Origin: Planctomycetota bacterium
GTDB taxonomy: Bacteria > Planctomycetota > Planctomycetia > Pirellulales > Pirellulaceae
DNA: 64,000 nucleotides
Assembly: GCA_027622275.1 (NCBI GenBank)
Contig: JAQBZB010000001.1
Location: 1-64,000, forward strand
Direction: 5' to 3'
The position numbers were made by a program, and so were the translations under genes. Below, one piece after another: positions 25,558 to 64,000 of this stretch. The number at the start of each line of letters is the position of its first letter. Positions within the stretch are counted from its first letter, which is position 1. The notes under the pieces are model-generated. The model was given only the letters and a program-made list of their open reading frames with translations. It did not search any database and was not told where the DNA came from.

Positions 25558-25953
25558 CTAAACCGCACCGGCCTTCAATTCGGCGAGATGCTGGGCCGTG
25601 CCGACGAGCCGGTCCCAGTTTTCGTAGATGTACTGGGGCGGTCCGCCGATTCGGGCGACGACCTGAGCGACTTGCTCGGTCGGCACCATCTCGATCGCAT
25701 CCCACGGACAGACCAGCAATTCGTACGGATTCGACTTCTTTTGCGGAATGTGGACACAGACCTCACAGCCGACGCAACGCTCGATGTCGATCTCGCACCA
25801 AGCCTGGTTCCCCTTGACGCCCAAATTCATCGTCCTCATCTCGATGCAATCGACCGGACAGACCTCCAGGCACGACTCGCAGCCGGTGCAGTTATCCGCA
25901 TTGATAACGGCCAGTTCCTTCGGCAGCTTCTTTCGCGGTCCCTGTTTTGCCAT
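25558..25953 (-). CDS. 4Fe-4S dicluster ferredoxin-like protein
   Basis: A 131-residue electron carrier. The first cluster motif, CTGCESCLEVCP (residues 22-33), is canonical C-x2-C-x2-C-x3-CP. The second is CVGCEVC (about 60-66), but its fourth Cys (LLVCP) follows 15 residues later instead of three, separated by VHIPQKKSNPYELLV. A C-terminal tail of about 45 residues (QYIYENWDRLVGTAQHLAELK) is not part of the ferredoxin fold. It may serve one of the oxidoreductases in the genome, for example KorAB encoded at 55229-58134. It starts at ATG and is apparently monocistronic, downstream of lysA. Confidence 0.9.
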   Translation of the reverse strand: MAKQGPRKKLPKELAVINADNCTGCESCLEVCPVDCIEMRTMNLGVKGNQAWCEIDIERCVGCEVCVHIPQKKSNPYELLVCPWDAIEMVPTEQVAQVVARIGGPPQYIYENWDRLVGTAQHLAELKAGAV

Positions 25954-54647: not shown

Positions 54648-55142
54648 TTGAGGTCGGGAAGGTCTGAGGTACTGGCTGTGGATGTTCATTTGACGTTGGA
54701 TACCGATACGGTCGAGCAAGTTGCGACTTTCGAACAGCTCTGTGTGGATGTTGGCACGACCGTTCGCGAGACGCTGCATGCGATGAAAGAGAAACGGCGG
54801 GGCGCGGTTCTCGTCTGCGAGGGTGAGAAGCTGGCGGGGATCTTCACCGAGCGAGATGCCTTGAAGCTGATGGAGCCGGGGGCGAACCTCGATCAGGCCG
54901 TCGGGCAAGTCATGACGGCGAATCCCGAGACGATCGCGGACAGCGAGACGGTCGGCGACGCGATCAAGAAGATGTCGCGCGGCGGCTATCGTCGCTTGCC
55001 GATGGTCGATCCCGATGGACGTCCAAAGGGCTTCGTCACCGTGTCGAGCATCCTGCACTATCTGGTCGGGCACTTCCCGGCGGTCGTCTACAACCTTCCA
55101 CCGAATCCGCACCACTCGACGCAAACGCGCGAAGGGGCATAA
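54648..55142 (+). CDS. CBS-domain protein upstream of KorAB
   Basis: A protein of about 164 residues carrying a CBS pair (Bateman module): VGTTVRETLHAMKEKRRGAVLVCEGEKLAGIFTERDALKLM, then VMTANPETIADSETVGDAIKKMSRGGYRRLPMVDPDGRPKGFVTVSSIL. Bateman modules bind adenine nucleotides or S-adenosylmethionine. The protein is closely related to the C-terminal CBS part of the protein at 58131-58652, which follows korB. Position 86 bp ahead of korA suggests an adenylate-sensing partner of the oxidoreductase. The start is TTG at 54648, or GTG at 54678. Confidence 0.87.
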   Translation: MRSGRSEVLAVDVHLTLDTDTVEQVATFEQLCVDVGTTVRETLHAMKEKRRGAVLVCEGEKLAGIFTERDALKLMEPGANLDQAVGQVMTANPETIADSETVGDAIKKMSRGGYRRLPMVDPDGRPKGFVTVSSILHYLVGHFPAVVYNLPPNPHHSTQTREGA

Positions 55143-55228
55143 GTTCTGGCCCGCCTTTACTACTTCGCCATCAAGGCGAATCACACCCACCGGCAACGAG
55201 CTACCACGAACTGGATCAAGAGCTAGTT

Positions 55229-57094
55229 ATGTCGACAACAACCGAGGGGCAGACCGCCTCTACTAAACAAACCATTGTTCTTGAAGGTGCCACCGTTCGA
55301 CTCGCCGGCGACTCGGGCGACGGCATGCAATTGGCTGGCACACAGCTGACCGGAACTTCCGCACAAGTTGGCAACGACATCGCCACGTTCCCCGACTTTC
55401 CCGCCGAGATCCGTGCTCCGCGCGGAACGTTGGCCGGGGTCAGCGGTTTTCAAGTTCACTTCTCGTCGCAAGAGATCTTCACGCCGGGCGACTCGTTAAA
55501 CTGTCTCATCGCGATGAATCCGGCGGCGCTGAAGACGAACCTCGCCGACCTCGATTCGGGCGGCGCGTTGATCGTCAACCAAGACGCCTTCGACAAGAAG
55601 GATCTGGAGAAAGCCGGCTACGCCACGAATCCACTCGAGGACGACAGCCTCGAAGGCTACAACCTGTTCAAAGTCCCGATGACCAAGCTCACGCGCGGCG
55701 CGGTCGAAGGATTGGGTCTGAGCGTGAAAGAAGCGGATCGCTGTCGCAACTTCTTCGCGATGGGCTTGATCTACTGGCTGTACGGTCGCGATTCGTCGCC
55801 GACGCTACGCTTCATCGAGGAGAAATTTGGTGGCAAGCCAGACGTCGCGGAAGCGAACCGCAAGGCATTGAACGCCGGTTGGAACTATGGCGAAACGACA
55901 GAAGCCTTTGTCAGCCACTACGAAGTCGCTCCGGCCAAGCTGCCGGCCGGCAAATATAAAAACATGATGGGCAACACAGCGTTGGCTTGGGGGCTGATCG
56001 CGGCGGCCAAAGTCAGCGGCAAGGATTTGTTTTACGGCACCTATCCGATCACGCCCGCCAGCGACATTCTGCACGAGCTGAGCCGGCACAAGAACTTTGG
56101 CGTTCGCACGGTCCAAGCCGAAGATGAAATCGCCGCCATGTGTACCGTCATCGGAGCCGCGTTCGCGGGATCGATGGCCGTGACAGGGTCGAGCGGACCG
56201 GGCATCGCGCTCAAGGGCGAAGCGATGGGCTTGGGAATGATCTTGGAACTTCCGATGATCATCATCAACGTCCAACGCGGCGGTCCGAGCACGGGCCTGC
56301 CGACAAAGACCGAGCAATCGGACTTGCTGCAAGTCCTCTTCGGACGCAATGGCGAGTCGCCGATTCCAATCATCGCCGCGCGTAGTCCAGGCGATTGCTT
56401 CGATGTCGCCATCGAAGCCTGGCGGATTGCGACGCGTTTCATGACGCCCGTCATCTTGCTGTCTGATGGCTACATCGCGAACGGTTCCGAACCGTGGTTG
56501 ATTCCGGATGCCGATGCGATTCCGAGAATCGAAGTCAGTCACCCCGGTCCGCTGAACGACGGCGAAGCCTTCCTGCCTTACGCGCGTAACGAACGCTTGG
56601 CTCGTCCGTGGGCGATTCCCGGCACGGAAGGATTGATGCACCGCGTCGGCGGCTTGGAGAAGCAGGATAAAACGGGCAATGTCAGCTACGATCCCGAAAA
56701 CCATCAGCACATGACGGACGTTCGTGCTCAAAAGGTCGCGAACATCGCCGACGATGTCCCGCTCCAAGAAGTAACCGGCCCCGCCAGCGGCGATTTGCTC
56801 GTCCTTAGTTGGGGCGGCACCTACGGCGCGAATACAACGGCGGTGAAGAAGTGCCAGAAGATGGGGCTGTCTGTCGCACACGCGCACCTCCGCTACCTGA
56901 ATCCGCTGCCCAAGAATTTGGGCGAGATTCTGGATCGGTACAAGAAGGTGCTCGTCCCCGAATTGAATATGGGACAGCTCCGCATGCTGATCCGCGCCCG
57001 CTATCTGAAGGACGCGATTGGCTACAATAAAGTGCAAGGCAAACCGTTCACCGTCGCGGAACTCGTCGGTAAGATCCAAGAAACCATCGGTTGA
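55229..57094 (+). CDS. korA: 2-oxoacid:ferredoxin oxidoreductase, alpha (fused gamma-alpha) subunit
   Basis: The 621-residue product begins with the gamma domain (VRLAGDSGDGMQLAGTQLTGTSAQVGNDIATFPDFPAEIRAPRGTLAGVSGFQVHFSS). The alpha pyruvate/2-oxoglutarate-type domain follows (GNTALAWGLIAAAKVSGKDLFYGTYPITPASDILHEL, VQAEDEIAAMCTVIGAAFAGSMAVTGSSGPGIALKGEAMGLG). Fused gamma-alpha subunits are typical of the 2-oxoglutarate:ferredoxin oxidoreductases (KorA type). With KorB it converts 2-oxoglutarate to succinyl-CoA with reduction of ferredoxin. It is 20 bp from korB. Confidence 0.94.
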   Translation: MSTTTEGQTASTKQTIVLEGATVRLAGDSGDGMQLAGTQLTGTSAQVGNDIATFPDFPAEIRAPRGTLAGVSGFQVHFSSQEIFTPGDSLNCLIAMNPAALKTNLADLDSGGALIVNQDAFDKKDLEKAGYATNPLEDDSLEGYNLFKVPMTKLTRGAVEGLGLSVKEADRCRNFFAMGLIYWLYGRDSSPTLRFIEEKFGGKPDVAEANRKALNAGWNYGETTEAFVSHYEVAPAKLPAGKYKNMMGNTALAWGLIAAAKVSGKDLFYGTYPITPASDILHELSRHKNFGVRTVQAEDEIAAMCTVIGAAFAGSMAVTGSSGPGIALKGEAMGLGMILELPMIIINVQRGGPSTGLPTKTEQSDLLQVLFGRNGESPIPIIAARSPGDCFDVAIEAWRIATRFMTPVILLSDGYIANGSEPWLIPDADAIPRIEVSHPGPLNDGEAFLPYARNERLARPWAIPGTEGLMHRVGGLEKQDKTGNVSYDPENHQHMTDVRAQKVANIADDVPLQEVTGPASGDLLVLSWGGTYGANTTAVKKCQKMGLSVAHAHLRYLNPLPKNLGEILDRYKKVLVPELNMGQLRMLIRARYLKDAIGYNKVQGKPFTVAELVGKIQETIG

Positions 57095-57114
57095 TCAAAG
57101 AGAAACAAACCTCC

Positions 57115-58134
57115 ATGAGTACTCAGCTCCCAGTTTTGAAGGCCAAGGATTTCGAGAGCGACCAGGACGTCCGTTGGTGTCCCGGTTGTGGTGACTACTC
57201 GATCCTGGCCCAGATGAAGAAGATGCTCCCGTCGATGGGAGTGCCGCGCGAAAAGATCGTGTTCATCTCGGGAATTGGCTGTTCCAGCCGCTTTCCCTAC
57301 TACATGAACACCTACGGGATTCACAGCATCCACGGCCGAGCCCCGGCGCTGGCCACCGGCTTGAAATCCGTTCGCCCCGACCTGATGGTCTGGGTCATTA
57401 CCGGAGACGGCGACGGGCTGAGCATCGGTGGCAATCACTTGATGCACGTCATCCGCCGCAACCTCGACATCAATATCATTCTCTTCAACAACCGGATCTA
57501 CGGTCTCACGAAGGGTCAGTATTCGCCAACTTCGCCGCTGGGCAAGGTCACCAAGAGCACGCCGATGGGTGCCATCGACAATCCGCTGCATCCGCTGTCG
57601 ATCGCGATCGGTTGCGAAGCCAGTTTCGTGGCCCGCTCAATCGACACCCACATCAAGCATCTCGAAGCGACGCTGCAACGCGCCGCCGAACATCGTGGCA
57701 CGTCGTTCGTCGAAGTCTATCAGAACTGCAACATCTTCAATGATGGGGCTTGGGAATACACGAAGGACAAGCAGACCAAAGCCGAAAACACGATCGAGCT
57801 GGAACATGGCAAGCCGCTGATCTTCGGCGCGAAACGGGATAAGGGCATTCGATTGAATGGCTTGGAGCCTGAAGTCGTCGAGCTGGGCAAGGGAGTTACC
57901 GAAGACGACCTCTTGTTCCACGACGAGAAGGCAGCCGAGCCGAGCTTGGCGTATTTGCTCAGCCGGATGCGTCACGAAGACGGTTTCCCCGAACCGATCG
58001 GCGTCTTCCGGGCCATCGAAACGCCTCGTTACGACGAGGAACTCAATAAGCAAGTCGCGGCGGCCAGGGCGAAACGGGGCGAAGGCGATTTGAACGCACT
58101 CTTCAATTCTGGCGAAACGTGGACGGTATCATGA
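57115..58134 (+). CDS. korB: 2-oxoacid:ferredoxin oxidoreductase, beta subunit
   Basis: A 339-residue thiamine-diphosphate subunit. WCPGCGDY (Cys22 and Cys25) with GCSS (Cys56) are Fe-S ligands. TGDGDGLSIGGNHLMHVIRRNLDINIILFNNRIYGLTKGQYSPTS contains the diphosphate-binding GDGD (97-100) and NNRIYG. TPMGAIDNPLHPLSIAIGCEASFVAR is characteristic of the 2-oxoglutarate-using branch. The ATG at 57115 is chosen over the TTG at 57091. The stop codon overlaps the start of the next gene (ATGA at 58131-58134), so they are translationally coupled. Confidence 0.95.
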   Translation: MSTQLPVLKAKDFESDQDVRWCPGCGDYSILAQMKKMLPSMGVPREKIVFISGIGCSSRFPYYMNTYGIHSIHGRAPALATGLKSVRPDLMVWVITGDGDGLSIGGNHLMHVIRRNLDINIILFNNRIYGLTKGQYSPTSPLGKVTKSTPMGAIDNPLHPLSIAIGCEASFVARSIDTHIKHLEATLQRAAEHRGTSFVEVYQNCNIFNDGAWEYTKDKQTKAENTIELEHGKPLIFGAKRDKGIRLNGLEPEVVELGKGVTEDDLLFHDEKAAEPSLAYLLSRMRHEDGFPEPIGVFRAIETPRYDEELNKQVAAARAKRGEGDLNALFNSGETWTVS

Positions 58135-58652
58135 TTGATTGCCCATTTTGCGGTGCGGAAAACATTCCCGGCATCGACGACTGCGAAGAATGCGGCCAAC
58201 CCTTGAGCCACATCAATACCGGGACTCATGCCAACAACATCGAGCGATCTTTGATCAAAGACCGCGTGGCCGCGCTGGCTCCCAAACAGCCATGCACCGT
58301 TTCGCCAGATGCGACGGTCGGACAAGTGCTTCATGAGATGGCGACCAATCGGATCGGTTGCGTGATGATCGTCGATGGCGGCAAGCCTGTTGGGATTTTC
58401 AGCGAACGCGACGCCCTGCTCAAGTTGAACACCGAAGCGGCATCCCTCAGCGATCACCCCATCTCCGAGTTCATGACGGCGAATCCCGAGACGTTGCAGG
58501 ACAGCGCGAAGATCGCGTTTGCCGTTCAAAGAATGGATTTAGGAGGTTATCGCCACCTCCCGATCGTCTCCAGCGACGATCAACTGCAAGGTATAATTTC
58601 GGTGCGAGCGATCTTGAACTATCTCACCGCCCGCATGACCTCGGCGAGCTAA
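58131..58652 (+). CDS. Zinc-ribbon plus CBS-pair protein coupled to korB
   Basis: A 173-residue protein. The first 25 residues form a zinc ribbon (CPFCGAENIPGIDDCEECG, four Cys). After a short linker comes a CBS pair: ATVGQVLHEMATNRIGCVMIVDGGKPVGIFSERDALLKL and FMTANPETLQDSAKIAFAVQRMDLGGYRHLPIVSSDDQLQGIISVRAILNYL. It shares ISEFMTANPETL-type segments with the CBS protein at 54648, so the two are paralogues. It overlaps korB by four bases, implying stoichiometric co-translation and a role in regulating the oxidoreductase. Confidence 0.9.
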   Translation: MIDCPFCGAENIPGIDDCEECGQPLSHINTGTHANNIERSLIKDRVAALAPKQPCTVSPDATVGQVLHEMATNRIGCVMIVDGGKPVGIFSERDALLKLNTEAASLSDHPISEFMTANPETLQDSAKIAFAVQRMDLGGYRHLPIVSSDDQLQGIISVRAILNYLTARMTSAS

Positions 58653-59968: not shown

Positions 59969-61501
59969 CTAAGCGGGCGCGGGCAAGTTGCTGTGTCCCA
60001 TCAGGAACGTGTCGATCGCGCGAGCGGCTCCTCGCCCTTCGTTGATGGCCCAGACGACCAGCGATTGGCCGCGGCGGCAGTCGCCGGCGGCGAAGACCTT
60101 GTCGACGCTCGTCTTGAATTCGCCGTGCTGGGCTTTGAAGTTGCTGCGCGGGTCGTACTCCAATCCGAGCATGTCCGAGACGGTTTGCTCGGGACCGACG
60201 AAGCCCATCGATAGGAAGACCAGATCGCCCTCAAAGACCTCTTCGCTGCCGGGCACTTCCGTGAACGGAGCCTTGTCGCCCGGCTTGGCCCAGTCGATAC
60301 GAACCGTCTTGATCCCGGCGACATTTCCTTCGCCGTCACCGATGAACTCTTTCGAGAGAACCGCATACGTGCGAGGATCGTTGCCGAACTTCGCTTCGGC
60401 TTCGGCGTGGGAATAGTCCACCCGGAAGATGCGCGGCCACTGCGGCCACGGATTGTTCTCCGCCCGCTCGACCGGCGGCGTGTCGAGCAGCTCGAAATTG
60501 ACAACGCTCGTGCAGCGGTGACGAATCGATGTGCCAATACAGTCCGCTCCGGTATCGCCGCCGCCGATGACGATGACGCGTTTCCCTTTCGCGGAGATAT
60601 ACGACTTGTCGGCCAATTCCGAATCGAGCAGGCTCTTGGTGTTCCGTGTCAGAAAGTCCATCGCGAGGTGAATGCCTTTCAACTCGCGGCCCGCGATCGG
60701 CAAGTCGCGCGGCTTCGTCGCTCCGGTCGCGAGCAACACGGCGTCGTGCTCCTGCGAAAGGTCGTTGGGATCGATGTATTTGACCGGGCAGCCGCGCTCT
60801 TCCATGATCTGCGTCATGTGCCCCGCGGGAAAATCTTCCTTCTTGCCAACATGGGCGTTGGTGACAAACGTGACTCCTTCCGCGCGCAGCAGATTCAGCC
60901 GCCGTTCGACGACGCCCTTGTCGAGCTTCATATTCGGAATGCCGTACATCAGCAAGCCACCGATGCGGTCGGCCCGCTCGTAAACGGTCACCGTGTGACC
61001 GACTTTGTTCAGCTGATCCGCGGCGGCCAGACCGGCCGGGCCGGAACCGACGATCGCCACTTTCTTGCCCGTGCGAGTCTTGGGAGGCTGCGGGCGGACC
61101 CAGCCTTCGGCGAAGCCGCGATCGATGATGGCGTTCTCGATATTCTTGATCGTGACCGCCGGATCGATGATGCCCAAGACGCACGCGCCTTCACACGGAG
61201 CGGGGCATGTGCGGCCGGTGAATTCGGGAAAGTTGTTGGTCTTGTGCAGCCGTTCCAGAGCGTCGCGCCAGCGGCCGTTGTAGATCAAGTCGTTCCACTC
61301 CGGAATCAGATTATCGATCGGACAACCGCTGGCCGATTGGCAGAACGGCACGCCGCAGTCCATACAGCGGGCCCCCTGCGTGCGCAGATGTTCCTCGTCG
61401 CCTTCGGTATAGATCTCGCCGAAGTCCTTGATGCGAACCAGCGGCTCGCGATACGGCACGGCTCGGCGCGGATGTTCCTTGAAACCTGTTGGCTTTCCCA
61501 T
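59969..61501 (-). CDS. gltD: Glutamate synthase small subunit
   Basis: The 510-residue subunit supplies electrons from NADPH to the large subunit for glutamate formation from glutamine and 2-oxoglutarate. The N-terminal Fe-S motifs are [16 protein letters not shown] and [12 protein letters not shown]. The FAD site is [28 protein letters not shown] and the NADPH site [20 protein letters not shown]. It ends with [28 protein letters not shown]. gltD lies 70 bp downstream of gltB on the same strand, so they are an operon. Confidence 0.95.
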
Positions 61502-61541
61502 CGCTACGTTTCTTTCTCATTGCGTCTCGGACTTGTTCGTT

Positions 61542-61560
61542 CCTTTCGCGGAGCGAAAGG
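61542..61560. repeat. Small palindrome in the gltB-gltD spacer
   Basis: CCTTTCGCGGAGCGAAAGG is a perfect 8-bp inverted repeat around GGA. It is 12 bp from the gltB stop codon and 41 bp ahead of gltD. It may be an operon-internal attenuating or processing hairpin. Confidence 0.7.
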
Positions 61561-61571
61561 CCACGTAGGGC

Positions 61572-64000
61572 TCAATCGTTGGGGCCTTCCGCGCGGACGG
61601 TCGATTCCTGTTCCTCGTCGTGCGACTTGCGTTCCATCAAGACGCGTTTGTAATCCAGCGGCATGACTTTCACGAACTCTTCCAAGACGTCAGGCCATTG
61701 CTCGAGCATTTTGCCAGCGACGGTTGAGCCAGTGAACTTGTGATGATCCTCGATCATTTCCAGCAACTCGCCGATGTCGTCGTCCGACTCGACGTCTTCC
61801 AGATCGACCAGGGCCAGATTGCAATTCAACCGGAACTCGTCGCGATCGGGAGCCCACACGTAGGCCGTGCCGCCTGACATGCCCGCGGCAAAGTTACGTC
61901 CCGTCGGCCCGAGGATGATTGTGCGGCCGCCGGTCATGTATTCACAACCATGATCGCCAACACCTTCCACCACCGCCCAAGCACCGCTGTTGCGCACACA
62001 GAATCGCTCGGCAGCTCGTCCGCGGAAGAAGGCTCGGCCACCCGTGGCTCCGTATAAACAAACGTTGCCGACGAGAATATTGTCTTCCGGCACAAAGCCG
62101 CTCTCCTTGGGCGGATAGATGACCACACGGCCGCCGGACAGCCCTTTGGCAACGTAGTCGTTGGCATCGCCCTCGAGTTCCAGCGTGATCCCGCGAGCCA
62201 ACCAGGCACCGAAGCTCTGTCCGGCCGAGCCGGTGAACTTGATATGAATCGTGTCGTCGCCAAGTCCATCTTCGCCCCACTTCTTCACGACGTTATGGCT
62301 CAAGAGCGTGCCGACCGTTCGATTCGTGTTAATGATCGGCAACTCGAATCGCACCTTATCACCGTTGTCGATCGCCGGAGCACACAGATCGAGCAGGTGA
62401 GTATTGTCGAGCGCGAATTCCAAGCCGTGGTCTTGCTTGATCGTACAGCGGGTTTCGACATCCTCGCGTGGCTTCTTGGCCGGCGTCAGGATCGGCGTCA
62501 AGTCGATGCCGTCCGCCTTCCAGTGATCGATCGCAGCCGCCATGTCGAGCACATCCGCTCGCCCAACCATCTCGTCCACCGTGCGGAAACCGAGCTGAGC
62601 CATCACGCGCCGCGCGTCCTCGGCCACCATGAACAAGTAATTGACAACATGTTCCGGCTTGCCCGTGAACTTCTTGCGGAGAATCGGATCTTGCGTCGCG
62701 ACGCCAACCGGGCAGGTGTTCAAGTGACACTTTCGCATCATGATGCAGCCGAGCGTGATCAGCGGAGCGGTCGAGAAGCCGATTTCCTCCGCGCCGAGCA
62801 AGAGCCCGATGACGACGTCGCGCCCGGTCTTCATGCCGCCATCGGTTTGCAGCACCACGCGGCTGCGCAGATCGTTCATCACCAGCGTCTGGTGCGTTTC
62901 CGCGATCCCCAACTCCCAAGGCAGTCCCGCATGCTTGATGCTGGTCAACGGCGAAGCGCCGGTCCCGCCTGCGTCGCCCGAGATCAGAATGTGATCGGCG
63001 TGAGCCTTGGCAACGCCGGCCGCGACCGTGCCGACACCGACTTCCGAGACCAGCTTCACGCTCACGCGGGCCGACGGATTGGCGTTCTTCAAATCGTGAA
63101 TCAGCTGCGCCAGATCCTCGATCGAATAGATGTCGTGATGCGGCGGCGGGCTGATTAGTCCGACGCCGGGTGTCGAGTGACGGATGCGGGCAATGTAGTC
63201 ATCCACTTTGTGACCCGGCAGCTCGCCGCCTTCACCGGGCTTTGCGCCCTGCGAGATCTTGATCTGCAACTCGTCGGCGTTGGTCAAATACCAAGCGGTC
63301 ACTCCAAATCTTCCTGACGCAACTTGTTTGATCGCCGACCGCTTGGAATCGCCGTTGGGAAGCGGTTTGAAGCGGTTCGAGTCCTCGCCGCCTTCGCCGG
63401 TGTTGCTCTTGCCGCCGAGCCGATTCATCGAGATCGCCAACGTCTCGTGCGCCTCGGCCGAGATCGAGCCAAAGCTCATCGCGCCGGTGCAGAACCGCTT
63501 GACGATCTCGCTGGCGGGTTCGACTTCTTCGAGCGGAACCGGGCCGCCATTGACGCCGTCCTTGAATCGGAGCAGCCCGCGGAGCGTGTACCGCTTGCGA
63601 TTCTCGTCATTGATCTGTTTCGCGAACCGCCAGTAAGCGTCTTCGTCGTTGGCGCGGGCGGCGATCTGAAGATCAGCGATCACATCCGGCTCCCAGCCGT
63701 GTTTCTCGCCTTCCGCTCGCCAATGGAACTCGCCGGGGTTCGGCAGCGACGGCAGCGCGTCTTCCTGACGTTCCGGGTAACCCAAGGCGTGGCGTCGAAG
63801 AATCTCTGTCGCGAGAACTTTGAAGTTCACTCCCTGCACGCGGCTTGCCGTGTTCGTAAAACAGCGGTCGATGACCTCGTCCTTCAAGCCCACGGCTTCG
63901 AAAATCTGGGCTCCCTTGTAGGACTGCAACGTCGAGATCCCCATTTTTCCCATCACCTTCAGCACGCCTTTGGCGACGGCTTTGCGGTATGCGTTAACGA
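61572..64000 (-). CDS. gltB: Glutamate synthase large subunit, C-terminal part
   Basis: The frame is open past the window edge, so the N-terminal amidotransferase part is outside. The visible 808 residues contain the FMN-binding synthase domain ([79 protein letters not shown]). The [3Fe-4S] motif is C-x5-C-x4-C ([15 protein letters not shown]). The C-terminal Gly-rich beta-helix has [39 protein letters not shown]. The protein ends VRAEGPND. Domain order and length are normal for the bacterial NADPH-dependent enzyme. Confidence 0.96.

Follow-up and report, generated by a model that had tools for sequence, protein, structure and literature searches.

Tandem CBS-domain proteins associated with the KorAB 2-oxoacid:ferredoxin oxidoreductase, candidate regulatory subunits in Planctomycetota and other phyla

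Gene organization of the kor locus

The window analyzed here, a 64-kb stretch of planctomycete DNA (64,000 nucleotides), carries on its plus strand a row of four genes in which both subunits of a 2-oxoacid:ferredoxin oxidoreductase (OFOR) are flanked by proteins with paired CBS domains, which we call CBS1 and ZnR-CBS. The genes and their features are as follows:

54678..55142, + strand: CBS1, a tandem CBS (Bateman) protein with a conserved C-terminal tail; PF00571 twice (2.8e-23)
54837..54857, + strand: GIFTERD in domain 1 of CBS1, a motif of the G-h-x-S/T-x-x-D type, from alignment
55074..55139, + strand: C-terminal tail of CBS1, FPAVVYNLPPNPHHSTQTREGA-stop, from alignment conservation
55229..57094, + strand: korA, fused gamma-alpha OFOR subunit; PF01558, PF01855, TIGR03710
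57115..58134, + strand: korB, beta subunit with thiamine pyrophosphate (TPP) and 4Fe-4S; PF02775, TIGR02177
58131..58652, + strand: ZnR-CBS, zinc ribbon plus tandem CBS, 173 aa; two CBS domains (1.2e-21)
58140..58193, + strand: zinc ribbon CPFC-x10-CEEC (C4, C7, C18, C21), kept in separate downstream copies
58392..58412, + strand: GIFSERD in domain 1 of ZnR-CBS, from alignment

CBS1 and korA are separated by 86 bases and korA and korB by 20, and korB and ZnR-CBS share the four bases ATGA at 58131-58134 (a gap of −4), an overlap through which ZnR-CBS is predicted to be translationally coupled to korB. Each of the two proteins has two CBS repeats that score above the curated PF00571 cut-off, and their CBS parts are 41% identical across 132 aa (1e-30). 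These features bear out what a sequence-only reading of this DNA had described, namely, a CBS pair ahead of korA, a zinc ribbon plus CBS pair overlapping korB by four bases, and a relationship between the two CBS parts. CBS1 homologues have their first residue at the position of GTG 54678, and although an in-frame TTG at 54648 is also open, CBS1 probably starts at the GTG and is 154 aa long. A scan of the locus for promoters and terminators gave no signal exceeding that of shuffled sequence.

By domains and sequence, KorA and KorB have the makeup of an ordinary two-subunit OFOR. KorA (621 aa) is a gamma-alpha fusion with a TIGR03710 match of 7e-201 and the YPITP motif, and it aligns end to end with the Magnetococcus marinus (M. 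marinus) enzyme 6n2n_A. KorB (339 aa) contains a TPP_enzyme_C domain and the WCPGCGDY and GDGDG motifs, and its sequence alignments to solved relatives cover only residues 7-220. The C-terminal part of KorB (residues ~221-339; window 57775-58134), which lies beyond the end of the alignments to solved chains at residue 220 or earlier, is conserved within the subfamily and runs into the CBS pair in the fusions described below. The predicted substrate, 2-oxoglutarate, is supported indirectly by the nearest solved structures (M. marinus 6n2n/6n2o, annotated only as OFOR in the matches, which we take to be a 2-oxoglutarate enzyme), by a genome without 2-oxoglutarate dehydrogenase E1, and by the adjoining glutamate synthase genes (gltBD).

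The gltBD genes occupy 59969-63965 on the minus strand (small subunit, 59969-61501; large subunit, 61572-63965), convergent with the kor operon, and place a 2-oxoglutarate-consuming pathway next to KorAB. A ferredoxin-like protein is encoded farther away at 25558-25953 (minus strand) and might be the electron acceptor of KorAB.

Candidate ligand site and C-terminal tail

CBS pairs usually sense AMP or ATP, and the G-h-x-S/T-x-x-D motif is linked to the binding of adenosine ribose-phosphate in CBS domains. The domain 1 motif of CBS1 is found in 48 of 49 aligned CBS1 rows in its relaxed form and in 42 of 49 in the strict form G-h-h-[ST]-E-[RKV]-D (the rows come from two alignments, with the window row present in both), and that of ZnR-CBS is found in 10 of 10 rows. 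Domain 2 is without the motif Asp in both window proteins and in many homologues. The closest solved folds to CBS1 are nucleotide-binding CBS pairs, among them CBSX2 with AMP (4gqy), PAE2072 (2rif), AMPK gamma (2uv4), AcuB with AMP, ADP, or ATP (9s4x-9s52), and CBS-CP12 (5nmu, 5npl). A common fold is no proof of a common ligand, and the adenosyl site predicted from motif and fold together is plausible, as is control of KorAB by energy charge through the CBS proteins.

CBS1-type proteins, that is, the upstream copies together with the single downstream copies of loci with one CBS gene, carry at their extreme C terminus a tail with the consensus FPxxVxNLPP...[E/D]G[A/G]-stop. The penultimate Gly is conserved in 48 of 49 rows, G[A/G]-stop in 46, and PP in 45. 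ZnR-CBS and generic CBS pairs are without this tail, their profile matches ending before it. In the AlphaFold2 model of CBS1 (mean pLDDT, 89.7), the tail is modeled at ~60 against ~95 for the CBS pair, which fits a peptide that becomes ordered only on its partner. Ubiquitin-like or Pup-like conjugation of the -GG end was considered and rejected: many copies do end in GG, but GA is the ending in 22 of 49 rows, and the protein has the CBS fold. Pup-type tags require Glu or Gln.

Across the 199 genomes, we count 35 matches that extend into the tail, of which 27 lie at korAB. The eight tail-bearing CBS proteins away from korAB include one beside a different OFOR cluster (L122), one at a contig edge (L123), and members of tandem CBS pairs (L125, L127). 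The first of these, the second tail-bearing CBS protein of its genome (G061; L122:1736-6669), is adjacent to, and divergent from, a KorABC-type oxidoreductase cluster that includes an HdrA-like gene, a case suggesting that the CBS proteins may also act with other 2-oxoacid:ferredoxin oxidoreductases. At the contig edge, the tail-bearing CBS gene adjoins a gene for a ferredoxin-like protein with weak Fer4 Pfam matches (L123:4272-4724, minus strand), in a genome in which no KorB was found. Tandem CBS pairs far from korAB occur in some planctomycete families (L125:5918-6897 and L126:5649-6673; L127:5937-7204 and L128:879-1909 on the minus strand). Their first gene retains a REGA-stop end but has lost NLPP, and their second is without the zinc ribbon; they are apparently a relocated copy of the korAB CBS module.

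Distribution among korAB loci

The survey of korAB neighborhoods in planctomycetes that the sequence-only reading had proposed was run as a KorB search of 199 genomes of the phylum, giving 82 loci (80 korAB loci read at 3 to 14 kb, the fusion locus L129, and the window), of which 28 have CBS genes beside korAB. Nine loci have an upstream and a separate downstream CBS gene, four an upstream gene and a KorB fusion, two have two upstream genes, one has a single upstream gene, 11 have a single downstream gene of the tail type, and one is truncated by the contig end with a downstream copy. The flanking CBS genes are co-directional with korAB and adjoin it in every locus read, and the 13-kb loci contained no CBS pair other than directly beside korAB.

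The expectation that close relatives would share the arrangement held in part. The nearest genomes of the same family (G121, 10 contigs; L039) and of the same order (G167, a single contig) have both CBS genes at korAB, but the close copies L040 (a second korAB of G121), L144, and L146 have none, and among the nine genomes of another family of the same class (f3) none has CBS genes at korAB. With about two-thirds of the surveyed korAB loci lacking CBS genes, the sister copy L040 among them, the CBS subunits would be dispensable for the enzyme as such.

A scan of named genomes anchored on KorB gave 80 loci, and 25 of these, in about eight phyla, have CBS genes at korAB; since most of the 25 come from metagenome bins, individual phylum assignments could err, though not the overall pattern. 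The CBS-bearing loci belong to Chloroflexota (L157, L158, L162, L170, L176, L177, L179, L180, L195), Acidobacteriota (L156, L186), Latescibacterota (L159), KSB1 (L173), Poribacteria (L184), Omnitrophota (L209), and Elusimicrobiota (L216), with Planctomycetota also represented. The Bacteroidota and actinobacterial korAB among these 80 loci have no CBS genes. Ferredoxin as a regular operon partner was rejected, as a motif search placed a ferredoxin near korAB in 2 of 52 loci with CBS genes and 5 of 109 without.

KorB-CBS fusions and the zinc ribbon

In seven loci, the C terminus of KorB is fused to a CBS pair in a single reading frame, through a flexible linker of ~25 to 50 residues that is often acidic. 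Four are planctomycete loci (L084, L105, L106, L129), and the others belong to Chloroflexota (L179, L195) and Latescibacterota (L159). Pfam places TPP_enzyme_C and CBS on one chain in all four fusions searched (L195, L159, L179, L106). Both parts fold in the AlphaFold2 single-chain model of the L195 fusion (pTM, 0.64), which displays no docking; as the linker (residues 333-370; pLDDT below 50) is disordered, this model is neither for nor against contact with KorB.

Unfused downstream partners carry the zinc ribbon in the window, in eight surveyed loci (L039, L044, L055, L056, L071, L072, L100, L101), and in 15 named copies, the exception being the unfused downstream partner of L081. The cysteine pairs were found in none of the seven fusions, and neither the upstream second copies (L049, L054, L173, L184) nor the relocated tandem pairs (L125-L128) have a ribbon. 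Because the ribbon occurs in unfused downstream copies and is absent on fusion, the simplest reading of these sequences is that it anchors the CBS pair on KorB and would be dispensable once the link is covalent.

Coevolution and metabolic context

On a tree of 162 KorB sequences, linkage to CBS genes is clustered (28 changes versus 44.7 in shuffles), and at least 14 changes are forced by supported branches, so that linkage was gained or lost many times. Pairwise distances are correlated between KorB and CBS1 (r = 0.61), KorA and CBS1 (r = 0.79), and KorA and KorB (r = 0.63); in Mantel tests, 0 of 2,000 permutations attained the observed value, with species history adding to all three correlations. 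The CBS1 tree matches the KorAB trees as closely as the KorA and KorB trees match each other. No residue of KorA or KorB cleanly separates enzymes with CBS genes from those without (best mutual information, 0.19).

2-Oxoglutarate dehydrogenase E1 was not found in the genome containing the window, which is 96% complete. Among genomes with this type of korAB, 3 of 27 with CBS-linked korAB have the dehydrogenase, versus 33 of 53 without CBS genes (Fisher P = 1.2e-5; collapsed by family, P = 0.003), and a tree-controlled test on the KorB tree gave on average 3.3 independent pairs for the association and 0 against, too few for significance. The pattern is suggestive of a tendency for KorAB to come with CBS partners where it is the only enzyme of the step.

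A proposed energy sensor for KorAB

An association of the CBS proteins with KorAB is well supported, and the earlier suggestion that they are dedicated partners of this enzyme gains strong backing from the linkage across phyla, the seven fusions, the congruence of trees, and a tail specific to the module. Beyond the association itself, we infer direct contact, a heterodimer, the ligand, the mechanism of the tail, and the direction of control. We consider it fairly probable that KorAB has CBS1 and ZnR-CBS as dedicated regulatory subunits, which place it under adenine-nucleotide control by means of a four-CBS disc and the tail. ZnR-CBS would be held at the KorB C terminus, by the zinc ribbon where it is a separate protein and covalently in the natural fusions, and CBS1 would pair with it (or with itself in loci with one CBS gene), giving a disc of four CBS domains like that of AMPK gamma. 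This disc would bind an adenine nucleotide at the conserved domain 1 site, and binding would shift or free the CBS1 tail (...NLPP...[E/D]G[A/G]-COOH), which would insert into KorAB and block or open access for substrate, coenzyme A (CoA), or ferredoxin. The outcome would be 2-oxoglutarate oxidation tuned to the energy state of the cell, chiefly where KorAB is the sole enzyme for the step. More tentatively, and in our view less likely than not, these loci could represent an undescribed, multiphylum class of allosteric OFOR in which KorAB is joined to a heteromeric four-CBS energy sensor whose free tail acts as a nucleotide-gated plug.

Among the alternatives, the one we take most seriously, while thinking it unlikely, retains regulation of KorAB but has the CBS proteins sense S-adenosylmethionine (SAM), c-di-AMP, NAD(H), CoA, or, through the zinc ribbon, redox state. 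The motif specifies merely an adenosyl-type ligand, and CBS pairs sharing this fold bind SAM or methylthioadenosine (MTA) (3kpb), c-di-AMP (5ks7, 8ad6), and ADP, ATP, AMP, or Ap4A (AcuB, 9s4x-9s52); however, AMP, ADP, and ATP are the commonest ligands in the closest solved folds (4gqy, 2rif, 2uv4, 9s5x), and the conserved G-h-x-T-x-x-D is of the ribose-phosphate type. We regard as improbable a mere co-expression in which the CBS proteins act on some other target, be it transcription, ribosomes, or thioredoxin and ferredoxin as for plant CBSX. The varied targets of stand-alone CBS pairs (CcpN, DarB-Rel, and others) and the tail-CBS genes distant from korAB (L119-L128) would suit such a role, yet one of the latter adjoins another OFOR (L122), and the KorB-CBS fusions, the loss of the ribbon on fusion, the congruent trees, and the repeated gain on either side of korAB in several phyla all argue for KorAB itself as the target.

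A different role for ZnR-CBS, in which the ribbon binds iron in the manner of rubredoxin and the protein carries electrons for KorAB or serves it as an adaptor instead of regulating it, seems to us very improbable. KorAB requires an electron acceptor, a ferredoxin-like gene adjoins one tail-CBS gene (L123), and Ta0289 (2qh1), listed as a CBS-rubredoxin-like protein with bound Fe2+, is among the fold matches; against this reading, the ribbon is missing from 7 of 7 fusions and several unfused copies, its short C-x2-C-x10-C-x2-C spacing is that of a zinc ribbon, and ferredoxin is seldom near korAB (2 of 52 CBS-bearing loci). Chance neighborhood or misassembly is hardly credible and is ruled out by the survey: many loci do come from metagenome bins, but the same gene order recurs in the single-contig G167, the 10-contig G121, and many independent assemblies.

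Under the preferred reading of CBS1 and ZnR-CBS as regulatory subunits, the module offers concrete candidate regulators for ferredoxin-type 2-oxoacid oxidoreductases. The natural fusions of enzyme and sensor can be expressed as one construct for assay, and the tail, motif, and zinc ribbon make up a residue-level hypothesis open to mutation. If true, it would explain how bacteria that rely on KorAB in place of 2-oxoglutarate dehydrogenase could control the same step of the tricarboxylic acid (TCA) cycle.

Comparison with known systems

KorA and KorB here are ordinary members of the KorAB/OGOR group, which includes the M. marinus enzyme (6n2n), Sulfolobus StOFOR (5b46), and Mycobacterium tuberculosis Rv2455c/Rv2454c, and the literature found on these enzymes (Baughn et al. 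included) describes no CBS partner for any of the three. For M. tuberculosis KorAB, the authors concluded that a regulator must exist, the means of regulation being yet to be identified (PMC2773412). In the open-licence literature, we found no paper joining CBS domains to a 2-oxoacid:ferredoxin oxidoreductase, in agreement with the sequence-only reading, which knew of no described system with this arrangement.

The closest parallel in the proposed mode of action, by analogy and not as a member of the same family, is cyanobacterial CBS-CP12, which likewise combines a tandem CBS module with a short C-terminal regulatory stretch and is among the fold matches (5nmu/5npl). CBS-CP12 binds AMP and then inhibits the activation of phosphoribulokinase (PRK) (PMC9406205). 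It differs in target, tail sequence, and lineage, and here the CBS genes lie in the operon of the enzyme or are fused to its subunit; Pfam shows only CBS domains in CBS1, with no CP12 domain at its C terminus, where the tail reads NLPP...EG[AG]. Archaeal CBS-zinc ribbon proteins of the Ta0289 type (2qh1, 1pvm, 3ghd) share with ZnR-CBS the combination of tandem CBS and a cysteine-rich ribbon, but in 2qh1 the CBS pair is N terminal (residues 0-129 of 179) and the ribbon would come after it, whereas in ZnR-CBS the ribbon is N terminal (residues 4-21) with the CBS pair following, and the gene is linked to korAB. AcuB and AMPK gamma are close in fold, as stand-alone or subunit CBS modules binding AMP, ADP, or ATP, but are without association to 2-oxoacid:ferredoxin oxidoreductases. 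OdhI and GarA, likewise small and dedicated, regulate this metabolic step through 2-oxoglutarate dehydrogenase (PMC2773412), although they follow an FHA/phosphorylation logic on another enzyme and are without CBS domains. Set beside these systems, the kor locus appears to unite an enzyme and a sensor fold that are each known, together with a conserved tail, in an undescribed combination.
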